Source of the DNA: a bacterium
Lineage (GTDB): Bacteria > Patescibacteriota > UBA1384 > JAMDBS01 > DAOVQR01
Direction: 5' to 3'
Assembly (NCBI GenBank): GCA_030628575.1
Contig: DAOVQR010000012.1
Location: 1 to 10,489, forward strand
DNA: 10,489 bases
Position 1 is the stretch's first letter. Each line of letters begins with the position of its first letter. This document shows positions 109 through 10,366 of this stretch, piece after piece. The position numbers and the translations under genes were made by a program. Below the pieces are notes generated by a model that searched no databases, was not told the origin of the DNA, and was given only the letters and a program-made list of their open reading frames with translations.

Positions 109-3100
109 ATGTCAAAGAATAAACAAAAAATATTTAGAACTTCCATAGATTCAAAAGAAAAAAGTTCTGAGGCAAAAATACTGGAGAAAAAAATTAAAGG
201 ATTAGGTTTTAATGTAAAACTCAGAATTAGTAATATTTATACTATCAAATATAATTTCTCTGATAAACAAATAAAAAAAGTTGCTGATGTATTACACAAT
301 AAAATTGTCCAAAAAGTAAGAATCAATCAACCCTTTAAAGAAAAATTCAACTGGGTTTTGGAACTTGGTTTTTTACCCGGTGTCACTGACAATGTTGCCA
401 ACACCACCACAGAAATTATTAATGATCTATTAATGTTGCCAACTTCAACCTACGAGGTTGAGGATTCTAATGTTAAAGTATTCACTTCAAAAGTATTATT
501 TATTACTTCTAAAAATTTAAAAAGAAAAGATATTGAAAAAATTGCCCAAGAGTTAATCAATGATCTAATCATGCGGTATCATATTAAAAATTACAAAGAA
601 TATAAAAAAAACAAAGGCATGGATTATATTGTTCCGGAAGTTCATCTTAAAAATCCACCTAAAGCAATGGAAATTAATCTAAATATAAATAATGATGATT
701 TAAAAATTTTGGGGAAAAAGGGAATTTTAGATCCTGATACCAAAATCAGACGCGGACCGTTAGCTTTAGATTTTGATTATTTAGAGGCAATTAAAAAATA
801 TTTTAATAAAAAGAAAAGGAAACCAACAGATATTGAATTGGAATCAATTGCCCAAACTTGGTCTGAGCATTGCAAACATACTTATTTTGCTGCTCAGCTC
901 GATGATATAAAAGAGGGAATCTACAAAACTTACATTAAAAAAGCCACCAATAAAATTAGGCAAAAATTAGGCAAAAAGGATTTCTGTATTTCAGTATTTA
1001 AGGATAATTCTGGAGGAATTGTTTTTGATAAAGATTATATGATTACAGATAAAGTGGAAACTCATAACAGTCCTTCAGCTCTTGATCCTTTTGGCGGCGC
1101 CATAACCGGCATCGTTGGGGTTAATCGCGATACCATTGGCTTTGGTTTAGGAGCCAAACCAATTGCCAATCGCTATGGATTCTGTATTGGCAAACCTGAA
1201 GATAAATCCGTAATGTATCGTGGCAAGAATAAAACTAATCCTGCCCTATCACCAAGAAAAATCCTAGAGGGAATCATAGAGGGAGTGAATGTGGGTGGCA
1301 ATTGTTCGGGTATCCCCACACCGCAAGGATTTGTTTATTTTGATGATTGCTATAAAGGCAAACCATTGGTTTTTGTCGGCACTATTGGTCTAATTCCTCG
1401 TAGATTAAAATCCGGTAGGTTGAGCCACAAAAAGAAAGCAAAATTGGGTGATAATATTGTCATAATTGGTGGCCGTGTTGGTAAAGATGGAATTCATGGA
1501 GCTACATTTTCCTCCGAAGCACTTACCCAAGGCAGTCCGGCAACAGCTGTGCAAATTGGTGATCCCATCACTCAAAAAAAATTATCTGATGCTGTAATTA
1601 AAGAAGCGCGCGATAGAAATTTATATAACAGCATTACCGACAATGGCGCTGGTGGATTATCTTGTTCAGTGGCGGAAATGGCTCAAGAATGCGGCGGCTT
1701 TATTGTTGATTTGGAAAAAGTACCTTTAAAATATCCTGGCTTACAGCCATGGGAAATTTGGATTTCAGAATCTCAAGAAAGAATGACTTTGGCAGTACCT
1801 GATAATAAATTAGCTGAATTTAATCAATTGATGAAAAGCCGAGGAGTAGAATCAACAAATATTGGAAAGTTTAATAAAAGCAAAAAAGCAATTGTAAAAT
1901 TTAAAGGCAAAAAAATTCTTAATCTTGATATGAAATTTTTGCATAATGGTTTACCAAAAAGATATTTAAAAACAAAACCATATCTTTATAATAAAAAAGA
2001 ATCAGAAATAAAAGTTAAAAATCAAAATAAATTATTGGAAAAAATTTTAGGTTCTCTTAATAATTCAAGTTTCGAATTTATTTCTCAACAATACGATCAT
2101 GAAGTACAAAATAGTTCTATAATCAAACCTCTGCAAGGCAAAGGAAGAGTCAATAATCAAGCCACTGTAATTAAACCTCTATTTAATAGTGATAAAGGTG
2201 TTGTTTTATCACAAAGTTTATATCCTAGATTGAGTGAAATCAGTACTTATGATATGGCTGCCTGCACAATTGATACTGCCATTAGAAACTGTGTGGCAGT
2301 GGGTGGTAATATTGATCACTTAGCATTACTTGACAATTTCTGCTGGTGCAGTTCGGGTGAACCTGAAAGATTGGTGCAATTAAAAGATGCCACTAAGGCA
2401 TGCTACGATTATGCCGTAGAATACAAAACTCCTTTTATTTCTGGCAAAGACAGCATGTTCAATGATTTTAAAGGATTTGATGAGAAAAATAATCCTTTAA
2501 AAATTTCTGTGCTTCCTACGCTTTTGATTTCATCGATTGGGGTAATAAATGACATTTATCATACAACCACTGTGGATTTTAAGAATTCGGGTGATTTAAT
2601 ATACATTATTGGCAATACCAAAGATGAATGTGGTGGTTCAGAATTTTATAATACATTTGGAAAAATTGGCGGCAATGCACCAAAAGTTAACGCGCGAGAA
2701 GCAAGAAAATTATATGAAAAAATGTATAAGTTACACATAAAAGAACTACTGAGTGCCTGCATGTCAGTAAGTAGAGGTGGATTGCTGGTTGGTCTGGTAA
2801 AAATGGCAATTGCTGGCCGACTCGGAGCCAAAATTGATATCAATAAAATACCAAATGATAATTTATCAGTGGAAAAAATATTCTATTCGGAAACCCAAAG
2901 CCGATTTATCGTCACTATTAATGCGAGAAATAAAAAGAAGTTTGAAAAACAAATGCAAGGTTTTGTTTATACAAAAATCGGCCGCGTATTAAATAAAACT
3001 GATTTTGTTGTCACAAAAAACAACAAAATCCCGATGGTTTCGCCAAAGACGAACCAATCGAGGATCCTCGACAGGACAAAGTCCGCCGGGACAATAATTA

Positions 3101-3156
3101 AAAATAATATCAATAATTTAGAAACAATATATAAAAAAAGATTTAAAAATTATTAG
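109..3156 (+). CDS. purL: Phosphoribosylformylglycinamidine synthase, PurS-like/PurL fusion
   Basis: Synthetase subunit of FGAM synthase. It converts FGAR to FGAM in the cytoplasm with ATP and with ammonia delivered by the PurQ subunit encoded next. At 1015 aa it lies between small PurL (~740 aa) and the large glutaminase-fused form (~1290 aa). Residues ~1-165 look like a PurS-type N-terminal region (LGFLPGVTDN near 87-96), ~170-245 a linker, and the rest the two AIR-synthase-like halves. Key motifs are SEHCKH at 252-257, ETHNSP at 317-322, TDNGAGG at 510-516, SGKDS at 778-782 and SRGG at 888-891. There is no glutaminase domain, which fits the separate purQ. The start is set by AGGAG at 100-104, four bases before ATG. 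Residues 974-995 are encoded by a G+C-rich palindromic insert, after which a typical C-terminal segment (NLETIYKKRF) resumes. The stop is TAG. The family call is firm; the PurS domain border is approximate. Confidence 0.97.
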   Translation: MSKNKQKIFRTSIDSKEKSSEAKILEKKIKGLGFNVKLRISNIYTIKYNFSDKQIKKVADVLHNKIVQKVRINQPFKEKFNWVLELGFLPGVTDNVANTTTEIINDLLMLPTSTYEVEDSNVKVFTSKVLFITSKNLKRKDIEKIAQELINDLIMRYHIKNYKEYKKNKGMDYIVPEVHLKNPPKAMEINLNINNDDLKILGKKGILDPDTKIRRGPLALDFDYLEAIKKYFNKKKRKPTDIELESIAQTWSEHCKHTYFAAQLDDIKEGIYKTYIKKATNKIRQKLGKKDFCISVFKDNSGGIVFDKDYMITDKVETHNSPSALDPFGGAITGIVGVNRDTIGFGLGAKPIANRYGFCIGKPEDKSVMYRGKNKTNPALSPRKILEGIIEGVNVGGNCSGIPTPQGFVYFDDCYKGKPLVFVGTIGLIPRRLKSGRLSHKKKAKLGDNIVIIGGRVGKDGIHGATFSSEALTQGSPATAVQIGDPITQKKLSDAVIKEARDRNLYNSITDNGAGGLSCSVAEMAQECGGFIVDLEKVPLKYPGLQPWEIWISESQERMTLAVPDNKLAEFNQLMKSRGVESTNIGKFNKSKKAIVKFKGKKILNLDMKFLHNGLPKRYLKTKPYLYNKKESEIKVKNQNKLLEKILGSLNNSSFEFISQQYDHEVQNSSIIKPLQGKGRVNNQATVIKPLFNSDKGVVLSQSLYPRLSEISTYDMAACTIDTAIRNCVAVGGNIDHLALLDNFCWCSSGEPERLVQLKDATKACYDYAVEYKTPFISGKDSMFNDFKGFDEKNNPLKISVLPTLLISSIGVINDIYHTTTVDFKNSGDLIYIIGNTKDECGGSEFYNTFGKIGGNAPKVNAREARKLYEKMYKLHIKELLSACMSVSRGGLLVGLVKMAIAGRLGAKIDINKIPNDNLSVEKIFYSETQSRFIVTINARNKKKFEKQMQGFVYTKIGRVLNKTDFVVTKNNKIPMVSPKTNQSRILDRTKSAGTIIKNNINNLETIYKKRFKNY
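3029..3091 (+). repeat. In-frame palindromic element inside purL
   Basis: These 63 bases (21 codons) are 57% G+C (36/63) within an A+T-rich gene and are packed with inverted repeats. TCCCG (3029-3033) faces CGGGA (3087-3091) as an outer arm. GATGGTTTCG (3033-3042) pairs with CGAACCAATC (3050-3059), with two bulges. TCGAGGATCCTCGA (3058-3071) is a perfect 14-base palindrome. GGAC-AAA-GTCC (3074-3084) is a short hairpin. The segment keeps the reading frame and adds about 21 residues between the last conserved strand of PurL (IGRV, 957-960) and the terminal helix. It has no T tract, so it is not a terminator. I interpret it as a small dispersed palindromic element inserted in frame, comparable in behaviour to the Rickettsia palindromic elements. 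Copies elsewhere in the genome cannot be seen from here. Confidence 0.65.
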
Positions 3157-4016: not shown

Positions 4017-5519
4017 ATGGACATCATACAAGATTACAGAAAAATTATTAAAAAAAATCTATCAAATACAATTGACGAAGGTTATATTCCAGAGCTAGGT
4101 AGGCATAAATCAGGAAAAGTTCGTGAAATTCATTTCAAATCAGACAAAATAGGTAGTCCAATAATAATGATTGCAACAGATAGAGTTTCATCTTTTGATC
4201 ATATTTTATCAAGATGTATCCCGTTTAAAGGAAAAGTTTTGAATTTATTTAGTAAGTGGGCTTTTGCCAATACAAAAGATATTGTTGATAATGCCATGAT
4301 AGAAAGCCCGCATGATAATGTAATAATACAAAAAAGAATGAAAAAAATTCCTTTTGAATTTGTAGTTCGTGGTTATGTATGGGGTAGTATGGCAAAGGAT
4401 TATGAAAATGGAAAGCGTGAATTTTGCGGAATTAAATTATCAAATAAATTATTGAAATATCAAAAACTGCCAGAACCATTATTTACGCCGGCAACTAAAG
4501 CAGAACAAGGAAATCATGACATCAACGTTAGTTTTGAATATATGGCAAAAAGAATCGGCAGAAAATTATCTTCTAAATTAAAAAATATATCAATTAAATT
4601 ATTCAATAGGGCATCTAAATTAGCAAAGAATAAAAGATTTATTTTTATTGATACAAAATATGAATTCGGACTGGACTCACATGGAAAAATATTCTTAATT
4701 GATGAAGCCAATACTCCTGATTCATCAAGATATTGCAGTAAAGATGAATACGAAAAATTCATCAAGATAGAAAAGGAAATGGCATCAGGCAAATACAAAA
4801 ATGTTTCGGAATTGATAAAACAAAAAGCAAAATTAAAAATCAAAGAACTTTCCAAACAATTTGTGAGAGATGCGTTGATTAAAAAAGGATTTGACCATGA
4901 CAGTATTGGTGATATTCCAAATCTCACCAATGAAGATGTTATTGAGGTATCTTATCGTTATATAACACTGTATGAAAAATTAACCGGCAATAAGCTTAAT
5001 TTTCCTCAAACAAATATCAGACAAGAATTATTAGATAAACTAAAACAAGAAAACTATATCAAAGGTGGTGTGGCAATTATCATTGCCGGCTCAGATTCTG
5101 ATTTACCGCATATCAAAAAGATCCAAATTGAACTTGATAAATATGATATTGCTTCAATTATAAGAATTTGTTCTGCTCACAAACAACCAGCTAAATGTGA
5201 AGAGATAGTAAATAAATATAATCAATCAATTGAACCGATTGTATTTATTTCAGTTGCGGGAGGCACTGATGCTCTCTCAGGTGTTGTATCATATCATAGT
5301 GTGCATCCAGTAATTAGTTGTCCACCAAATGCAGAAAAATATCAATCATGCATTAATAATCCACCCATCAGTTCCAATTCATTAATACTTCGTCCTCAAA
5401 ACGTAGCTAAACATACTGCCAAAATACTAGGACACAATAATCCAGAAATTAAAGAGATAATAAATAAAAAGAAAAAAGATAAAATTAAGAAATTAGAAGA
5501 AGCTGATAAACAATTTTAA
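4017..5519 (+). CDS. purC-purE: Bifunctional SAICAR synthetase / AIR carboxylase (PurC-PurE fusion)
   Basis: Two consecutive enzymes in one 500-aa chain. Residues ~20-330 are SAICAR synthetase: KSGKVR (31-36), DRVSSFD (55-61), VRGY (117-120), FTPATKA (156-162), DTKYEFG (212-218) and TPDSSR (233-238). This half ligates aspartate to CAIR using ATP. Residues ~350-500 are an AIR carboxylase: GSDSD (358-362), SAHK (386-389), AGG (414-416) and PVISCPP (431-437). The order PurC-PurE, the Lys in SAHK where bacterial PurE usually has SAHR, and ISCPP all recall the animal PAICS protein, whose PurE half (class II) uses CO2 directly. I infer class II chemistry, which would make PurK unnecessary. The PurC half is of the long Ade1-like type. 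The last ~25 residues are lysine-rich, as in PAICS tails. AAAGGA at 4005-4010 lies six bases before ATG. No frameshift joins the halves: the frame is continuous across a ~20-residue linker. Confidence 0.93.
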   Translation: MDIIQDYRKIIKKNLSNTIDEGYIPELGRHKSGKVREIHFKSDKIGSPIIMIATDRVSSFDHILSRCIPFKGKVLNLFSKWAFANTKDIVDNAMIESPHDNVIIQKRMKKIPFEFVVRGYVWGSMAKDYENGKREFCGIKLSNKLLKYQKLPEPLFTPATKAEQGNHDINVSFEYMAKRIGRKLSSKLKNISIKLFNRASKLAKNKRFIFIDTKYEFGLDSHGKIFLIDEANTPDSSRYCSKDEYEKFIKIEKEMASGKYKNVSELIKQKAKLKIKELSKQFVRDALIKKGFDHDSIGDIPNLTNEDVIEVSYRYITLYEKLTGNKLNFPQTNIRQELLDKLKQENYIKGGVAIIIAGSDSDLPHIKKIQIELDKYDIASIIRICSAHKQPAKCEEIVNKYNQSIEPIVFISVAGGTDALSGVVSYHSVHPVISCPPNAEKYQSCINNPPISSNSLILRPQNVAKHTAKILGHNNPEIKEIINKKKKDKIKKLEEADKQF

Positions 5520-5559: not shown

Positions 5560-6678
5560 ATGGATTATAAAAAATCAGGTGTAAATATAAAACTTGGCGA
5601 TGATGCATCAAAAGTTTTGTACCAAGCAGCCAAACAAACTTTTAAAAATAGAAAGGGTGATATTGGTGAGCTAATTGTTCCCTTTGATGATTTTAGTGGA
5701 TTAAGAGTGGTTGATATTAGTAATCTACCTAAAGACAGTGTAATGTCTATGGGATTTGATGGAGTAGGTACAAAAGTGGAAATTGCCCAAAGAATGAATA
5801 ATTATCGAACCATTGCCTTTGATTTATTTGCCATGGTTTGTGATGATGCTGTGGTGCGCGGAGGAGAACCGATACTTATTGGAACCGTTTTAGACGTTAA
5901 CTCGTTAAGCAAAGACAAAAAATCAAACATCGAAGCTATAAAACAATTGGCTGAAGGATATATCAAAGCAGCAAAAGCCGCAAATGTGGCAATAATAAAT
6001 GGTGAAATCGCCGAACTTGGTAATCTTGTTGGCGGATATGGAAAGTTTAAATATAATTGGTCCGCTGGACTTATTTGGTTTGCCAAAAAAAACAAAATTT
6101 TTACCGGACGTGAAATTAAATTAGACGATTCAGTTGTTGTTTTTGAAGAAAAAGGATTTAGATCAAATGGCTTATCTTTGGTCAGGAAAATTTTTAAGAA
6201 AAATTTTGGAGACAATTGGCATAATAAAAAATATAGAGGTAAAAAATTAGGAAATTTAGTTCTAACACCATCTAAAATATATTCTCAAGCAATGGTAAAT
6301 ATACATGGTGGATTTCAGACAAAAGGGACTTGTAAAATTCACGGAGTTACTCATATTACTGGTGGTGGATTGCCGGAAAAACTATCACGAATATTAAAAC
6401 CTTGTGGATATGGCGCAAAACTTGATAATCTATTCGAACCTTGTAAGGTGATGCAATATTGTCAAAAACTTGGTAAAATTAAAGACAGAGAAGCATATAA
6501 AACTTGGAATATGGGTCAAGGAATGGCAATAATTACTCCGGAGCCAGAAAAAGTTGTTAAACAAGCAAAAAAAATTGGAATTTTGGCAAAAATTGCTGGT
6601 GAAATTGTAAAAGACAAGAAAATCATCATAACAAGCCAAGGAATATTTAATAAAAGGAAACAAATAATATTTAAATAA
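5560..6678 (+). CDS. purM: Phosphoribosylformylglycinamidine cyclo-ligase (AIR synthetase)
   Basis: Closes FGAM to AIR with ATP, linking the PurL/PurQ product to PurE. Family motifs in order: DGVGTK (67-72), a D-D pair in AMVCDD (91-96), GEIAE (148-152) in place of the usual GGETAE, RSNGLSLVRK (201-210) for the usual HSNGYSLVRK, LTPSKIY (235-241), HITGGG (265-270) and NMG (317-319). At 372 aa it is somewhat longer than the usual ~345 aa, with extra length near residues 40-60 and at the C-terminus. The sequence is clearly diverged from proteobacterial PurM, yet the nucleotide-binding landmarks remain. The ribosome-binding site is weak: only CGGA near 5548-5551, eight bases from ATG. The ATG choice fits the family start, where YKxxGV comes right after the initiator Met. 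It begins 40 bases after purC-purE. Confidence 0.93.
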   Translation: MDYKKSGVNIKLGDDASKVLYQAAKQTFKNRKGDIGELIVPFDDFSGLRVVDISNLPKDSVMSMGFDGVGTKVEIAQRMNNYRTIAFDLFAMVCDDAVVRGGEPILIGTVLDVNSLSKDKKSNIEAIKQLAEGYIKAAKAANVAIINGEIAELGNLVGGYGKFKYNWSAGLIWFAKKNKIFTGREIKLDDSVVVFEEKGFRSNGLSLVRKIFKKNFGDNWHNKKYRGKKLGNLVLTPSKIYSQAMVNIHGGFQTKGTCKIHGVTHITGGGLPEKLSRILKPCGYGAKLDNLFEPCKVMQYCQKLGKIKDREAYKTWNMGQGMAIITPEPEKVVKQAKKIGILAKIAGEIVKDKKIIITSQGIFNKRKQIIFK

Positions 6679-6707: not shown

Positions 6708-8138
6708 ATGACAAATAATAACATTTTATCAAAAAGATATGCAACTAAAGAAATAAACAAAATATTTTCCGAAAAAGGAAAAATTCTTTTGGAAAGAAAA
6801 TTGTGGATTGCCTTGATGAAAGCCCAAAAAAAGCTGGGGCTTGATATCTCATCTAAAAGCATTAAAAAATATGAATCAGCTAAAGATAATATTAATTTAA
6901 AACGTATAAACGAAATCGAACAAAAAACAAAGCATGATGTTAAGGCAAAAATCGAAGCATTTGTTGAAGTTGCCAATGCAGAAGAAAATATCCATAAAGG
7001 AATGACCAGCAGAGATTTAACTGATAATGTCGAGCAAATGCAGATTATGTTAGCTGCTAAAATAATATTTGGAAAATATCTTTCAATATTAAAGCATATG
7101 CTTGATAAATCAAATAAATATAAAGATATTGTTCTGACTGCGCGAACTCATCACCAACCAGCCCAAGCAACTCTTTTGGGAAGACGAATGGCAATGTGGG
7201 CAGAAGAACTACTATTTCATTTGGAGAAATTTGAAAAGTTTATTGAGAATTATCCTCTACGAGGAATTAAGGGCCCAATTGGAACCCAATTTGATATGCT
7301 TACACTCCTAGGTAGTAGAGAAAAGGTAAAAACATTAGAAAATAAAGTAGCAAACGAACTTGGCTTTACAAAAATATTGAGTTCTCCGGGACAAATTTAT
7401 CCTAGATCGTTGGATTTTAAACTTATATCAAATCTCTTGTTGCTGTCTTCTGCTTGTGAAAATTTTGCCAAAGGAATGAGATTAATGGCTGGTTATGAAT
7501 TAGTTACAGAAGGATTTAAAAAAGGTCAGGTAGGTTCCAGTGCCATGCCTCATAAAATGAACACTAGAAGCTCAGAAAGAATCTGCGGCTTCGGCGAACT
7601 GCTTAAAATGTATGCTGATGGAGCTTCAAGATTATTAGGAGACCAATGGGAAGAAGGGGATATCTCCTGTTCGGTTGTCCGAAGGGTAATAATTCCTGAT
7701 TCATTCTATGCTTCTGATGGTTTATGTGAAACCAGTTTAACTGTTCTAAATAATATGGGAACATATGACGCGATTATTAATAAAGAAATAAATAGATATT
7801 TGCCATTTTTGGCTACAACAGAAATTTTAATGATAGCTATTAAATCAGGGTTAGGAAGAGAAACCTCCCACAAAATAATCAAAAAATATGCAATTGGTGA
7901 AGCATTAAGAATGAGACAGAAAAATTATAAAGAGAATAAGCTGAGCGAATTATTGACAAACGATCCTAAATTTGTCCGAGCAGGAATAACGAAAAAAAGA
8001 ATTGATAATATTATTTCCAATAAATATCATTTTATTGGAAATGCAAAAAAACAGATAGCATCAATTACAAAAAAGGCAAAAAAATTACTTGATAAATATT
8101 CTGAACAAATAAAATATAAACCAAAAGATATACTCTAA
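6708..8138 (+). CDS. purB: Adenylosuccinate lyase
   Basis: Fumarase/aspartase-superfamily lyase. In this operon its role is SAICAR to AICAR plus fumarate; the same enzyme also converts adenylosuccinate to AMP. Motifs: KGMTSRDLTDN (97-107), ARTHHQPAQ (145-153) and the superfamily signature GSSAMPHKMN (276-285), which carries the mobile catalytic serine loop. EEGDISCSVVRR follows about 40 residues later, a pattern typical of the longer bacterial and eukaryotic forms. The 476-aa length fits that subgroup rather than the ~430-aa Bacillus type. The chain is mostly helical with no membrane segment, and the active enzyme is expected to be a cytoplasmic tetramer. CAGGA at 6696-6700, seven bases before ATG, supports the start. 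It lies 29 bases after purM and 12 before the first purP, between the SAICAR-making and AICAR-using enzymes. Confidence 0.96.
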   Translation: MTNNNILSKRYATKEINKIFSEKGKILLERKLWIALMKAQKKLGLDISSKSIKKYESAKDNINLKRINEIEQKTKHDVKAKIEAFVEVANAEENIHKGMTSRDLTDNVEQMQIMLAAKIIFGKYLSILKHMLDKSNKYKDIVLTARTHHQPAQATLLGRRMAMWAEELLFHLEKFEKFIENYPLRGIKGPIGTQFDMLTLLGSREKVKTLENKVANELGFTKILSSPGQIYPRSLDFKLISNLLLLSSACENFAKGMRLMAGYELVTEGFKKGQVGSSAMPHKMNTRSSERICGFGELLKMYADGASRLLGDQWEEGDISCSVVRRVIIPDSFYASDGLCETSLTVLNNMGTYDAIINKEINRYLPFLATTEILMIAIKSGLGRETSHKIIKKYAIGEALRMRQKNYKENKLSELLTNDPKFVRAGITKKRIDNIISNKYHFIGNAKKQIASITKKAKKLLDKYSEQIKYKPKDIL

Positions 8139-8150
8139 GAAAAGGTAGAT

Positions 8151-9164
8151 ATGTTCAATCATAAAATCGCTACAATTGGTTCTCATTCTGCCCTACAAAT
8201 TCTTAAAGGAGCAAAAGATGAGGGTTTTTCTACGATCGTAATATGTATAAAAAACAGAGAAAAACTATATAAATTATTCGATGTGGCAGATGAGATTATA
8301 ATAATAAATGACTATAAGGAATTTCCTAAAATTCAAAATAAATTGAAAAAGGAAAAAGCAATAATAATCCCACACGCTTCTTTTATTGCCTACCTTGGTC
8401 TTAAAACAATTGAAAAACTCAAAATCCCATATTATGGAAACAAAAAGATCCTCCACTGGGAATCAGACAGAAACAAAGAAAAAAAATGGCTGGCAAAATC
8501 TAAGCTAAATTTACCAAAAATATTCACCAAGGCAGAAAAAATTGATAGACTAGTTATTGTAAAACTGCACGGAGCAGATGGAGGCAAGGGATATTTTTTA
8601 GCAAAAGACAAAGATGATTTTATTAAAAAAACTAAAAGCCAGCCCAAACAAAATTACTTTATTCAAGAATATATTATTGGGGTTCCCATCTATATTCACT
8701 ACTTCTATTCGCCAATCACCAACCAAGTAGAAATTATGGGTTTTGATAAACGTTACGAAACTAATGTTGATTCCCTCGGCAGAATTAACAGTTATGATCA
8801 ACTTGATCTACCAAAAAAAATGATTGATCCTAGTTATGTAGTTATCGGCAACTTCCCCATGGTAGTGAGGGAATCATTATTACCAAAAATTCTTGAGATG
8901 GGACAAAATGTTGTTAAAGCAAGCCAAAAAATAGCTCCGCCGGGTTTATTTGGTCCTTTTTGTTTAGAAACCATTTTAACTTCAGAATCAAAATTCTATA
9001 CCTTTGAGATTTCGGCCAGGATAGTTGCCGGAACTAATCCTTATATTAATGGCTCACCTTATACTTGGATAAAATATAATGAACCAATGTCCACTGGAAG
9101 AAGAATTGCTAGAGATATCAAGCAAGCGATAGAACAAAACAAGCTAGAAAAAATATTGTATTAA
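8151..9164 (+). CDS. purP: Formate-dependent FAICAR synthetase PurP (archaeal type), copy 1
   Basis: ATP-grasp-like ligase that formylates AICAR with formate and ATP to FAICAR, replacing the folate-dependent PurH transformylase. It matches the archaeal enzyme family throughout: IGSHSALQILKGAK (9-22), HASFIAY (75-81), ESDR (104-107), VIVKLHGADGGKGYF (135-149) with the Gly-rich ATP loop intact, EEY-like QEY (172-174), HYFYSP (183-188), ESLLP (241-245), GPFCLE (268-273), FEISAR (285-290) and GRRIAR (316-321). All landmarks look functional, so this is the likelier active copy. An in-frame TAA at 8136-8138 and AAGG at 8142-8145 fix the start at this ATG. The protein therefore lacks about 15 N-terminal residues seen in copy 2 and in archaeal PurP as I recall it. 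It also has a shorter segment around residues 150-170. The gene follows purB by 12 bases in the same frame. In bacteria this gene is uncommon, so transfer from archaea is plausible. Confidence 0.93.
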   Translation: MFNHKIATIGSHSALQILKGAKDEGFSTIVICIKNREKLYKLFDVADEIIIINDYKEFPKIQNKLKKEKAIIIPHASFIAYLGLKTIEKLKIPYYGNKKILHWESDRNKEKKWLAKSKLNLPKIFTKAEKIDRLVIVKLHGADGGKGYFLAKDKDDFIKKTKSQPKQNYFIQEYIIGVPIYIHYFYSPITNQVEIMGFDKRYETNVDSLGRINSYDQLDLPKKMIDPSYVVIGNFPMVVRESLLPKILEMGQNVVKASQKIAPPGLFGPFCLETILTSESKFYTFEISARIVAGTNPYINGSPYTWIKYNEPMSTGRRIARDIKQAIEQNKLEKILY

Positions 9165-9233
9165 GTAGTATGTATGAAGTAGTATGCATAATACAAAATG
9201 CATGATACATAATACATGCTACATACTACATAT
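9164..9233. repeat. Palindromic ~14-base-period repeat between purP copies
   Basis: The 74-base gap is almost filled by five units of about 14 bases: starts at 9164, 9178, 9192, 9206 and 9220. Units 1 and 2 both begin AGTAGTATG and agree at 12 of 14 bases. Units 4 and 5 both begin TACATA and agree at 11 of 14. The whole is palindromic: GTAGTATGTA (9165-9174) pairs with TACATACTAC (9220-9229), and ATGCAT (9184-9189) with ATGCAT (9198-9203) across an 8-base loop. It has no T tract. It looks like a small dispersed palindromic repeat of the kind often found in A+T-rich gaps of uncultivated bacterial genomes. In RNA it could fold into a branched hairpin just before the next start codon. Confidence 0.6.
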
Positions 9234-9238
9234 CAATC

Positions 9239-10366
9239 ATGATTACACAACAAAAAATCAACAATATATTAAATAAATACGATAAGAGCCAAATCACCAT
9301 TGGTGTTTTGGGTGGCCATTCTGCTCTTGATGTCTGTCGGGGAGCAAAAAAAATGGGATTTAAAACAGTGGCAGTTTGTCAAAAAGGTAGAGAGTTAACT
9401 TATGCTAGATATTACAAAACAAGAAATAATAAAGGTATTATTGATAAAGTCATCTTAGTCAATAAATTCGCTGATATTGTTAAAGAAAAAGTGCAAAAAA
9501 AATTAAGAAAACTAAATACCATATTTATTCACAACAGGTATTTCTGGGTTTATTGTGATTTTAATGAGATTGAAAATAAATTTTTAGTTCCGATTTTTGG
9601 CACGAGAACAATGTTAAAACTTGAAGAAAGAGATATATCTAAAAATCAATATTATTTATTAAAACAGGCAAGAATCAGAATGCCAAAAATATTTGCCAGT
9701 CCTAAAAAAATCGATAGATTGGTGATTGTTAAAGTTGCAGAAGCCAGACGCAGTTACGAACGCGCTTTCTTTTTATGCAATAATTTCCAAGAATATCAAC
9801 AAAAATCAAAAGAATTATTAGAGAAAAAAATAATCAAACAAGAAGTTTTAAACAAAGCAGTTATTGAAGAATACATAGTCGGCGCTCAAACAAATTTCAA
9901 TTATTTTTACAGCCCGATAACTCAAGAACTTGAATTGATGGGAATTGATACTAGAAGACAAACTAATCTTGATGGTATAATCAGATTACCAGCTGATCAA
10001 CAGCTAGAAGTTTTAAAACATCTCCAATTAAAAATTATCGAAACTGGCCCTCTGGCTTGTACTACCAAAGAATCAATCCTGGAAAAAGCATTTTTTATCG
10101 GGGAAAAATTTGTCAAAACTTGCAAAAAAGAACATTCACCGGGAATTATTGGTCCTTTTGCCCTACAGGGTTCAATTGCTCCCTTTGCAAATAAAGAAGA
10201 AATTGTTATATTTGATGTATCAATGAGAATTCCCGGCAGTCCCGGAACAAGATTTACACCATATTCTGGATATCTGTATGGCGAATCACTTAGTTATGGG
10301 GAAAGGATTGCCATGGAAATAAAAAAGGCAATTTCAAAGAATAAACTTGATGTAATTTGTACATAA
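9239..10366 (+). CDS. purP: PurP paralogue, copy 2 (divergent, activity uncertain)
   Basis: A full-length member of the PurP family (375 aa), but with key positions unlike copy 1. Conserved: GGHSAL (25-30, H27), DRLVIVK (159-165), EEYIVGAQ (210-217), YFYSPIT (222-228), GIIGPFALQ (302-310) and FDVSMR (325-330). Changed: the Gly-rich loop GADGGKGYF of copy 1 becomes EARRSYERAFF (168-178), HASF becomes HNRY (98-101), HYFYSP becomes NYFYSP (N221), FEISAR becomes FDVSMR (E to D326), and the following loop reads PGSPGTRFTPYSGY. These features recall the second PurP paralogue that Thermococcales-type archaea carry beside the first, whose role is less well established. It may be a second subunit, a ligase with another substrate, or a regulator. 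The ATG has no Shine-Dalgarno site; it was chosen because the N-terminus (MI..I...KYDK..ITI) matches the family start as I recall it. The gene lies 74 bases after copy 1, behind a palindromic repeat. Confidence 0.85.
   Translation: MITQQKINNILNKYDKSQITIGVLGGHSALDVCRGAKKMGFKTVAVCQKGRELTYARYYKTRNNKGIIDKVILVNKFADIVKEKVQKKLRKLNTIFIHNRYFWVYCDFNEIENKFLVPIFGTRTMLKLEERDISKNQYYLLKQARIRMPKIFASPKKIDRLVIVKVAEARRSYERAFFLCNNFQEYQQKSKELLEKKIIKQEVLNKAVIEEYIVGAQTNFNYFYSPITQELELMGIDTRRQTNLDGIIRLPADQQLEVLKHLQLKIIETGPLACTTKESILEKAFFIGEKFVKTCKKEHSPGIIGPFALQGSIAPFANKEEIVIFDVSMRIPGSPGTRFTPYSGYLYGESLSYGERIAMEIKKAISKNKLDVICT

Follow-up and report, generated by a model that had tools for sequence, protein, structure and literature searches.

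Rickettsia and Wolbachia provide the best-known palindromic inserts that lie in frame within protein genes (PMC10969869, PMC4224334). RPE are small palindromic repeats of ~150 bp that occur in frame in unrelated genes and have a conserved peptide (PMC10969869), and WPE-like elements are likewise palindromic repeats in frame in unrelated genes (PMC4224334). A further well-described group comprises the REP, REPIN and BIME sequences, palindromic hairpins that often stand head to head, some of them in genes and some of them bulged; REP hairpins are processed by Y1 enzymes of the RAYT type (TnpA-REP), and RPE-4 and RPE-6 have been counted among the CGTC repeats (PMC3733652, PMC6006769).

Here, we analyzed a window of 10,489 nucleotides (the whole stretch of DNA under study), which carries a purine operon and is a contig of a fragmented, 68%-complete genome of 823 kb. 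With a probability of about 0.9, a 63-bp segment of its purL gene is in our judgement both a copy of a family of palindromic elements and a mobile insert taken up in frame. A description of this palindromic family was not found in limited searches of open-licence full texts, with most subscription papers outside their reach.

Like RPE and WPE, the family has copies in frame in unrelated genes, in agreement with the Rickettsia-like behaviour that an earlier note on this DNA had proposed. Unlike RPE, as far as a comparison by description goes, it has no conserved peptide: its core is read in three frames, its arms are variable and its copies are 41–166 bp long. Copies in tRNA sequence and tRNA genes carried as cargo also have no parallel in the RPE and WPE descriptions cited above, and we infer that the host phylum of the family differs from the hosts of RPE and WPE. 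With REP pairs, the family shares palindromic, bulged and paired hairpins, but, according to the flank table, its hairpins lack the unpaired GTAG or CGTC tag that stands at one foot of the hairpin in REP/REPIN and CGTC repeats, and many copies lie in tRNA sequence, which again sets them apart from REP/REPIN. In mitochondrial double-hairpin elements two hairpins form the mobile unit; these resemble the family by description, but reside in organelle genomes. Integron attC sites combine a variable sequence with a conserved hairpin containing bulged bases, and the family core does not resemble the attC boxes. Target-duplicating MITEs differ as well, as no target-site duplication is seen in 21 of 26 tRNA junctions of the family. 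To our knowledge, no mover has been described for the in-frame palindromic inserts of the RPE and WPE kind. A second large family of this sort, with its preferred target positions, its fixed bulges, its tRNA cargo and most of its junctions free of target duplication, would make movement and absorption into proteins directly testable.

The 63-bp segment of purL and its host protein

The host gene purL occupies positions 109..3156 on the plus strand (NCBIfam PurL, alignment and AlphaFold model). Within it, the palindromic element was placed at 3029..3091 on the plus strand by a covariance model built from copies of other genomes (R3, see below); its core is of the TCCCGA...GGGA type, and it comprises 21 codons, keeps the frame and accounts for residues 974–994 of the protein. 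Its G+C content is 57% (36/63 bases) compared with 33% in purL. Reading of the sequence shows a perfect 14-bp central palindrome, TCGAGGATCCTCGA (3058..3071), translated as S-R-I-L-D in the purL frame. The elevated G+C content, the palindrome and the 21 in-frame codons are as the earlier note had described them. Based on the family alignment and pair counts, the segment divides into a first hairpin TCC-CGA-arm-TCG-A-GGA with the single A as bulge (3029..3064, plus strand; also seen by direct reading) and a second hairpin TCC-T-CGA-arm-CCG-GGA with the T as bulge and a diverged stem (3065..3091, plus strand). The C at 3092 on the plus strand, at the 3' side of the element, is probably a target base, judging from the corresponding base in other copies. 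The three hairpins originally reported match the predicted RNA fold of the diverged purL copy, which has three arms on an outer stem (z −1.9, 5/200 shuffles as good), but members of the family fold as two bulged hairpins. The DNA fold of 3029–3093 has a z of −2.4, with 6/200 shuffles as good. Folding of the purL segment by itself is weak evidence; the comparative evidence is strong.

For the comparison with relatives, 80 PurL proteins were taken from those listed, of which 78 extend past the insert site (L114 and L117 do not). In the 21 insert columns, 34 of the 78 have no residue and 41 have a single one, with five, five and eight residues in the remaining three; the lack of residues ~974–995 that the earlier note had looked to in close relatives is seen in 75/78, with only 0–1 of the 21 residues. 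The emptiness of the site is a protein-level observation, and the nearest genomes compared belong to the same class. The best PurL profile match stops at residue 974, the start of the insert. On sequence grounds, we regard the 63 bases of purL as an in-frame insertion. In an AlphaFold model of PurL built with 20 aligned PurL proteins (mean pLDDT 79.7), the insert appears as a low-confidence loop (pLDDT <50 at residues 973–992) between the strands 965–970 and 994–1000. The insert would lengthen this loop of PurL, probably without having any job there.

Next to the element, purL contains a perfect 11-bp inverted repeat at 3001–3030, whose last two bases overlap the element start and which perhaps served as a hairpin target for the element. 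Elsewhere in the window, 4017–5519 encodes an apparent fusion of PurC and PurE of 500 residues (PurC profiles 16 to 341, PurE profile 354–499), and two tandem PurP-type genes (formate--phosphoribosylaminoimidazolecarboxamide ligase) lie at 8151–9164 and 9239–10366, both under the curated cut-offs. The closest PurL relatives among those listed, with 64–69% identity over the best segment, come from records whose labels name DPANN-type archaea instead of bacteria; these labels suggest gene exchange or mislabelled bins.

Detection and architecture of the family

The full 63-mer is single-copy in its own genome. A search of 61 genomes with this sequence returned the query as the only full-length match besides short and weak ones, and an exact 19-mer from the 3' end of the element, with 3 mismatches allowed, found its own copy only. 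Through the central palindrome, a further family copy was recognized in the same genome, located between genes on contig C6, with 10 differences from the purL copy over 38 aligned bases, all of them transitions as read by eye; two family copies are known in this genome. Among 55 genomes of the class, a 19-base pattern matched in three, namely the genome itself, G036, where the match is a true copy, and G018, where no such structure was seen and the match was rejected. Across 379 genomes of the phylum (~0.4–2 Mb each), an exact gapped pattern matched six times, in three genomes; the reversed control gave 0.

Covariance models extended the search. A model from six copies (R1) recovered a held-out copy of G126 at an E value of 1.3e-7 and matched 8/379 genomes at E 0.001 or better, the genome of the window counted. 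A second model (R2) matched at least 84/383 genomes in the class of G126, which belongs to the same phylum, and at least 75 of the 337 good ones; only about eleven candidates were scored per genome, so that both counts are lower bounds. G126 has a bacterial 16S match, and, given the genome sizes stated above, the phylum is probably Patescibacteria (CPR). As an independent test, the model R3, made from copies of other genomes only, scored the purL copy at 37.4 bits (3028–3091, minus strand, E 1.9e-7) and 35.8 bits (3029–3092, plus strand) and the C6 copy at 50.3 bits, and the next score in 121 kb of this genome was 10.3 bits. Chance pattern matches on viral contigs reached an R3 score of at most 16.7 bits; the full pattern had 0 matches on these contigs, and half of the pattern occurred in 10 of them, in none of which a closing TCGGRAC followed within the 80 bases inspected. 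The 80 named PurL loci (1.36 Mb) held no family match, and Rfam at gathering threshold placed no family on an element in the window, L293, L237 or L223. Across these searches, the purL segment is, to judge from its sequence, a member of a real and large family that is spread over the phylum. Further copies, whose absence from the genome the earlier note would have counted against its reading, were obtained both in this genome (C6) and in others; the idea that the family is this genome's own had to be given up, given copies throughout the phylum and only two here.

The family architecture consists of two back-to-back bulged hairpins, TCCCGA-arm-TCGAGGATCCTCGA-arm-TCGGGA: a hairpin TCC-CGA-arm-TCG-N-GGA is joined to its mirror image, and the consensus is its own reverse complement. 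The arms are variable in sequence, and their complementarity is kept. In an alignment of 34 distinct rows, 98.3% of cells are paired and covariation is 0.361 versus 0.142 in shuffled alignments (0/500), a score favoured by the inclusion of both strands of each copy and by the fit to the model. An unfitted alignment of six rows has a covariation of 0.300 versus 0.110 (0/500), with two of its five measures not clearly above shuffles (90/500 and 142/500). Conservation is thus found at the level of the palindrome and not of the protein, the reverse of what the earlier note had named as speaking against its reading.

For counts across the family, we used 130 copies in 102 stretches, comprising the best-scoring listed matches and a first set; this sample is non-random, and some copies are related or duplicated. 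The 122 copies that could be split yielded 244 hairpins, with a 1-nt bulge after pair 3 in 226 and a 2-nt bulge after pair 12 in 50. These fixed bulges suggest recognition by a protein. TCGAGGATCCTCGA is intact in 74/130 copies, and direct reading of the core (TCCCGA, TCGAGGATCCTCGA, TCGGGA) shows no stop codon in any frame. The 3' base is C in 115/130 copies, a count biased by the inclusion of that C in the model; at the flanks, T then G is favoured on the left and C then A on the right.

Copies in protein genes and in tRNA sequence

Frames open on both sides surround 38 of the 130 copies (44 readings, 42 distinct ORFs), two of which are also tRNA-junction copies whose frames are probably no genes. 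Core lengths divisible by 3 occur in 32/38 of the open-frame copies versus 35/92 of the others, where the open-frame requirement in itself favours such lengths. This shows a family without a built-in 3n length, whose survivors within genes have it. Pfam analysis of 30/42 distinct open-frame ORFs revealed a domain in 27 (none for L262, L228 and L263). In total, ORFs with a Pfam domain host 28 copies, those in leuS, pheS, folD, secA and tsaD among them, with L241 left out, where the element is located well ahead of the domain and probably outside the gene. In 11 ORFs, the element stands inside one continuous Pfam domain match, namely in folD, a glycosyltransferase, pheS, dus, galT, leuS (three times), an ileS/valS-like synthetase, an HhH-GPD protein and secA; the copies in the last two have uncertain ends and lengths that are not 3n. 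The three leuS copies (L240, L247 and L293, from three families) have a common site and similar second arms and, as expected, fit one old insertion. In the proteins, the core is read in its three frames as SRILD, RGSS and EDPR. The central proposal of the earlier note, that purL tolerates an in-frame palindromic element, is borne out by the 75/78 relatives without it, the palindrome-level conservation and the other copies. For annotators, this is a warning that mobile DNA rather than function can account for extra protein loops in these genomes. The stretch L237 (4517–9220) contains a 1568-residue open frame with three elements and an endosialidase-chaperone domain.

To identify copies in tRNA sequence, 30 bases from either side of each copy were joined and compared with tRNAs. 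A tRNA match ran across the join in 26/129 junctions versus 5/3900 control places. A recheck with more targets gave 27 matches, of which 8 are weak (E 1e-4 to 1e-3) and not all come from independent copies; the junction L298:5489 was gained, the match at L259:5563–5663 was dropped, as the predicted tRNA overlaps the element itself, and 26 tRNA junctions in 21 stretches stand. The join falls at tRNA positions 10–12 in 9 cases, 23–27 in 9, 53–56 in 4 and elsewhere in 4. As 21/26 junction alignments are free of gaps and 5 have gaps, copies appear to enter tRNA sequence mostly at an exact point and without duplicating the target; where tRNA cases were read by eye, the 3' C is part of the tRNA. ARAGORN recognized a tRNA in 0/130 single joined junctions (control 3/2600), which would in part reflect double insertions and decay.

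Four copies contain a complete tRNA in one arm, namely Lys(ctt), Thr(tgt), Thr(cgt) and Thr(tgt). Removal of all copies in a stretch restored a tRNA gene in L267, Thr(tgt), and in L272, Thr(cgt); in L250 and L297 ARAGORN restored none, and the agreement there comes from anticodon loops read by eye. In 4/4 cases, including the two read by eye, the carried and the broken tRNA are of one kind. One might picture a selfish element throughout the phylum that attacks tRNA genes at fixed positions and can bring along a spare of the same tRNA kind in its arm to save the host, with a stop-free core letting other copies live in essential proteins; this picture is tentative, and we would sooner bet against it in its entirety.

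Possible movement and rival explanations

In our preferred reading, the purL segment represents one copy of a mobile palindromic element that is small and non-autonomous. Each strand would fold into two bulged hairpins when single-stranded, and a hairpin-binding enzyme acting in trans, for which an HUH/Y1 transposase of the IS200/RAYT type is the likeliest candidate, would cut the element and paste it before a C. Copies would persist where they are harmless, that is between genes, in spare tRNA copies and in in-frame loops of proteins. The mostly exact insertion without duplication, the paired bulged hairpins and the 3' C fit single-strand HUH/Y1 transposition; target duplication is not known from the IS200/RAYT group. 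Y1 genes were found in 63/84 element-bearing versus 161/299 other genomes (Fisher p 4.5e-4), a hand count uncorrected for kinship in which two draws of 383 genomes were taken as the same. PF01797 is common in the class of G126, yet has no match in 21 of the 84 element-bearing genomes, and G126, listed as 100% complete, bears the element and has no Y1 match. For an HUH/Y1 transposase as the mover, we would put the odds a little short of even.

Copying might also need no dedicated enzyme, with template switching or recombination at replication forks giving rise to the hairpins and spreading them. This would suit the highly variable and still complementary arms as well as the copies L223:5001 and L223:10739, which have one hairpin in common and differ in the other; only this within-locus case is used, as short arms are alike and arm-sharing counts across genomes are noisy. 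The fixed core, the fixed bulge spacing and the recurrent tRNA positions point to recognition by a protein instead, so that we consider such copying unlikely. An enzymatic alternative is that small GIY-YIG endonuclease genes, through cutting followed by repair, carry the palindromes into tRNA genes. A GIY-YIG domain indeed lies within 200 bp of 12/130 copies versus 1.42% of control places, and in the first set a PF01541 match is no more than 200 bp away from 5/17 copies, at 4 loci (distances by hand). However, 9 of these 12 copies are tRNA-junction copies, away from tRNAs the count falls to 3/104 (p 0.18), and 10/15 GIY-YIG domains in the stretches have an intact tRNA no farther than 200 bp away. 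GIY-YIG genes and elements may therefore simply share tRNA remnants, and we judge the endonuclease less probable still than copying that needs no dedicated enzyme.

Far less credit is due to the view that the 21 residues, or RNA hairpins, serve PurL or the purL mRNA and were selected rather than inserted. The leuS element at one site in L240, L247 and L293 could reflect use, but equally mere inheritance, whereas the occurrence of the same element in unrelated genes, tRNA sequence and spacers, the very low model confidence of the PurL loop and the lack of an Rfam family on the element of the window at gathering threshold make a function in PurL highly improbable. An artefact of assembly or binning might be suspected in a window from a fragmented, 68%-complete genome; with the family present in many other genomes, including the one-contig genomes G496, G444 and G210, an artefact is excluded for the family, and we give this view practically no weight.

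Besides the family, several neighbouring features were observed. Small GIY-YIG genes occur within or beside broken tRNA copies in L285, L302, L292 and L223. In L293 (5947–9170), 42 bp separate the end of an element from the 16S-like start that follows it at 6062; the Rfam 16S match extends from 6966 to 9170 (2.2 kb), and the gene seems to bear insertions. In L211 (~5080–5190) and L133 (~1375–1490), palindromes of the form CCCCGTTA...TAACGGGG flank whole tRNA genes beside elements and are perhaps a second tRNA-carrying palindrome family. The genome of the window also contains hairpins of another repeat type, ATCCCGAA...TTCGGGAT (L040:4080 and L026:3929).
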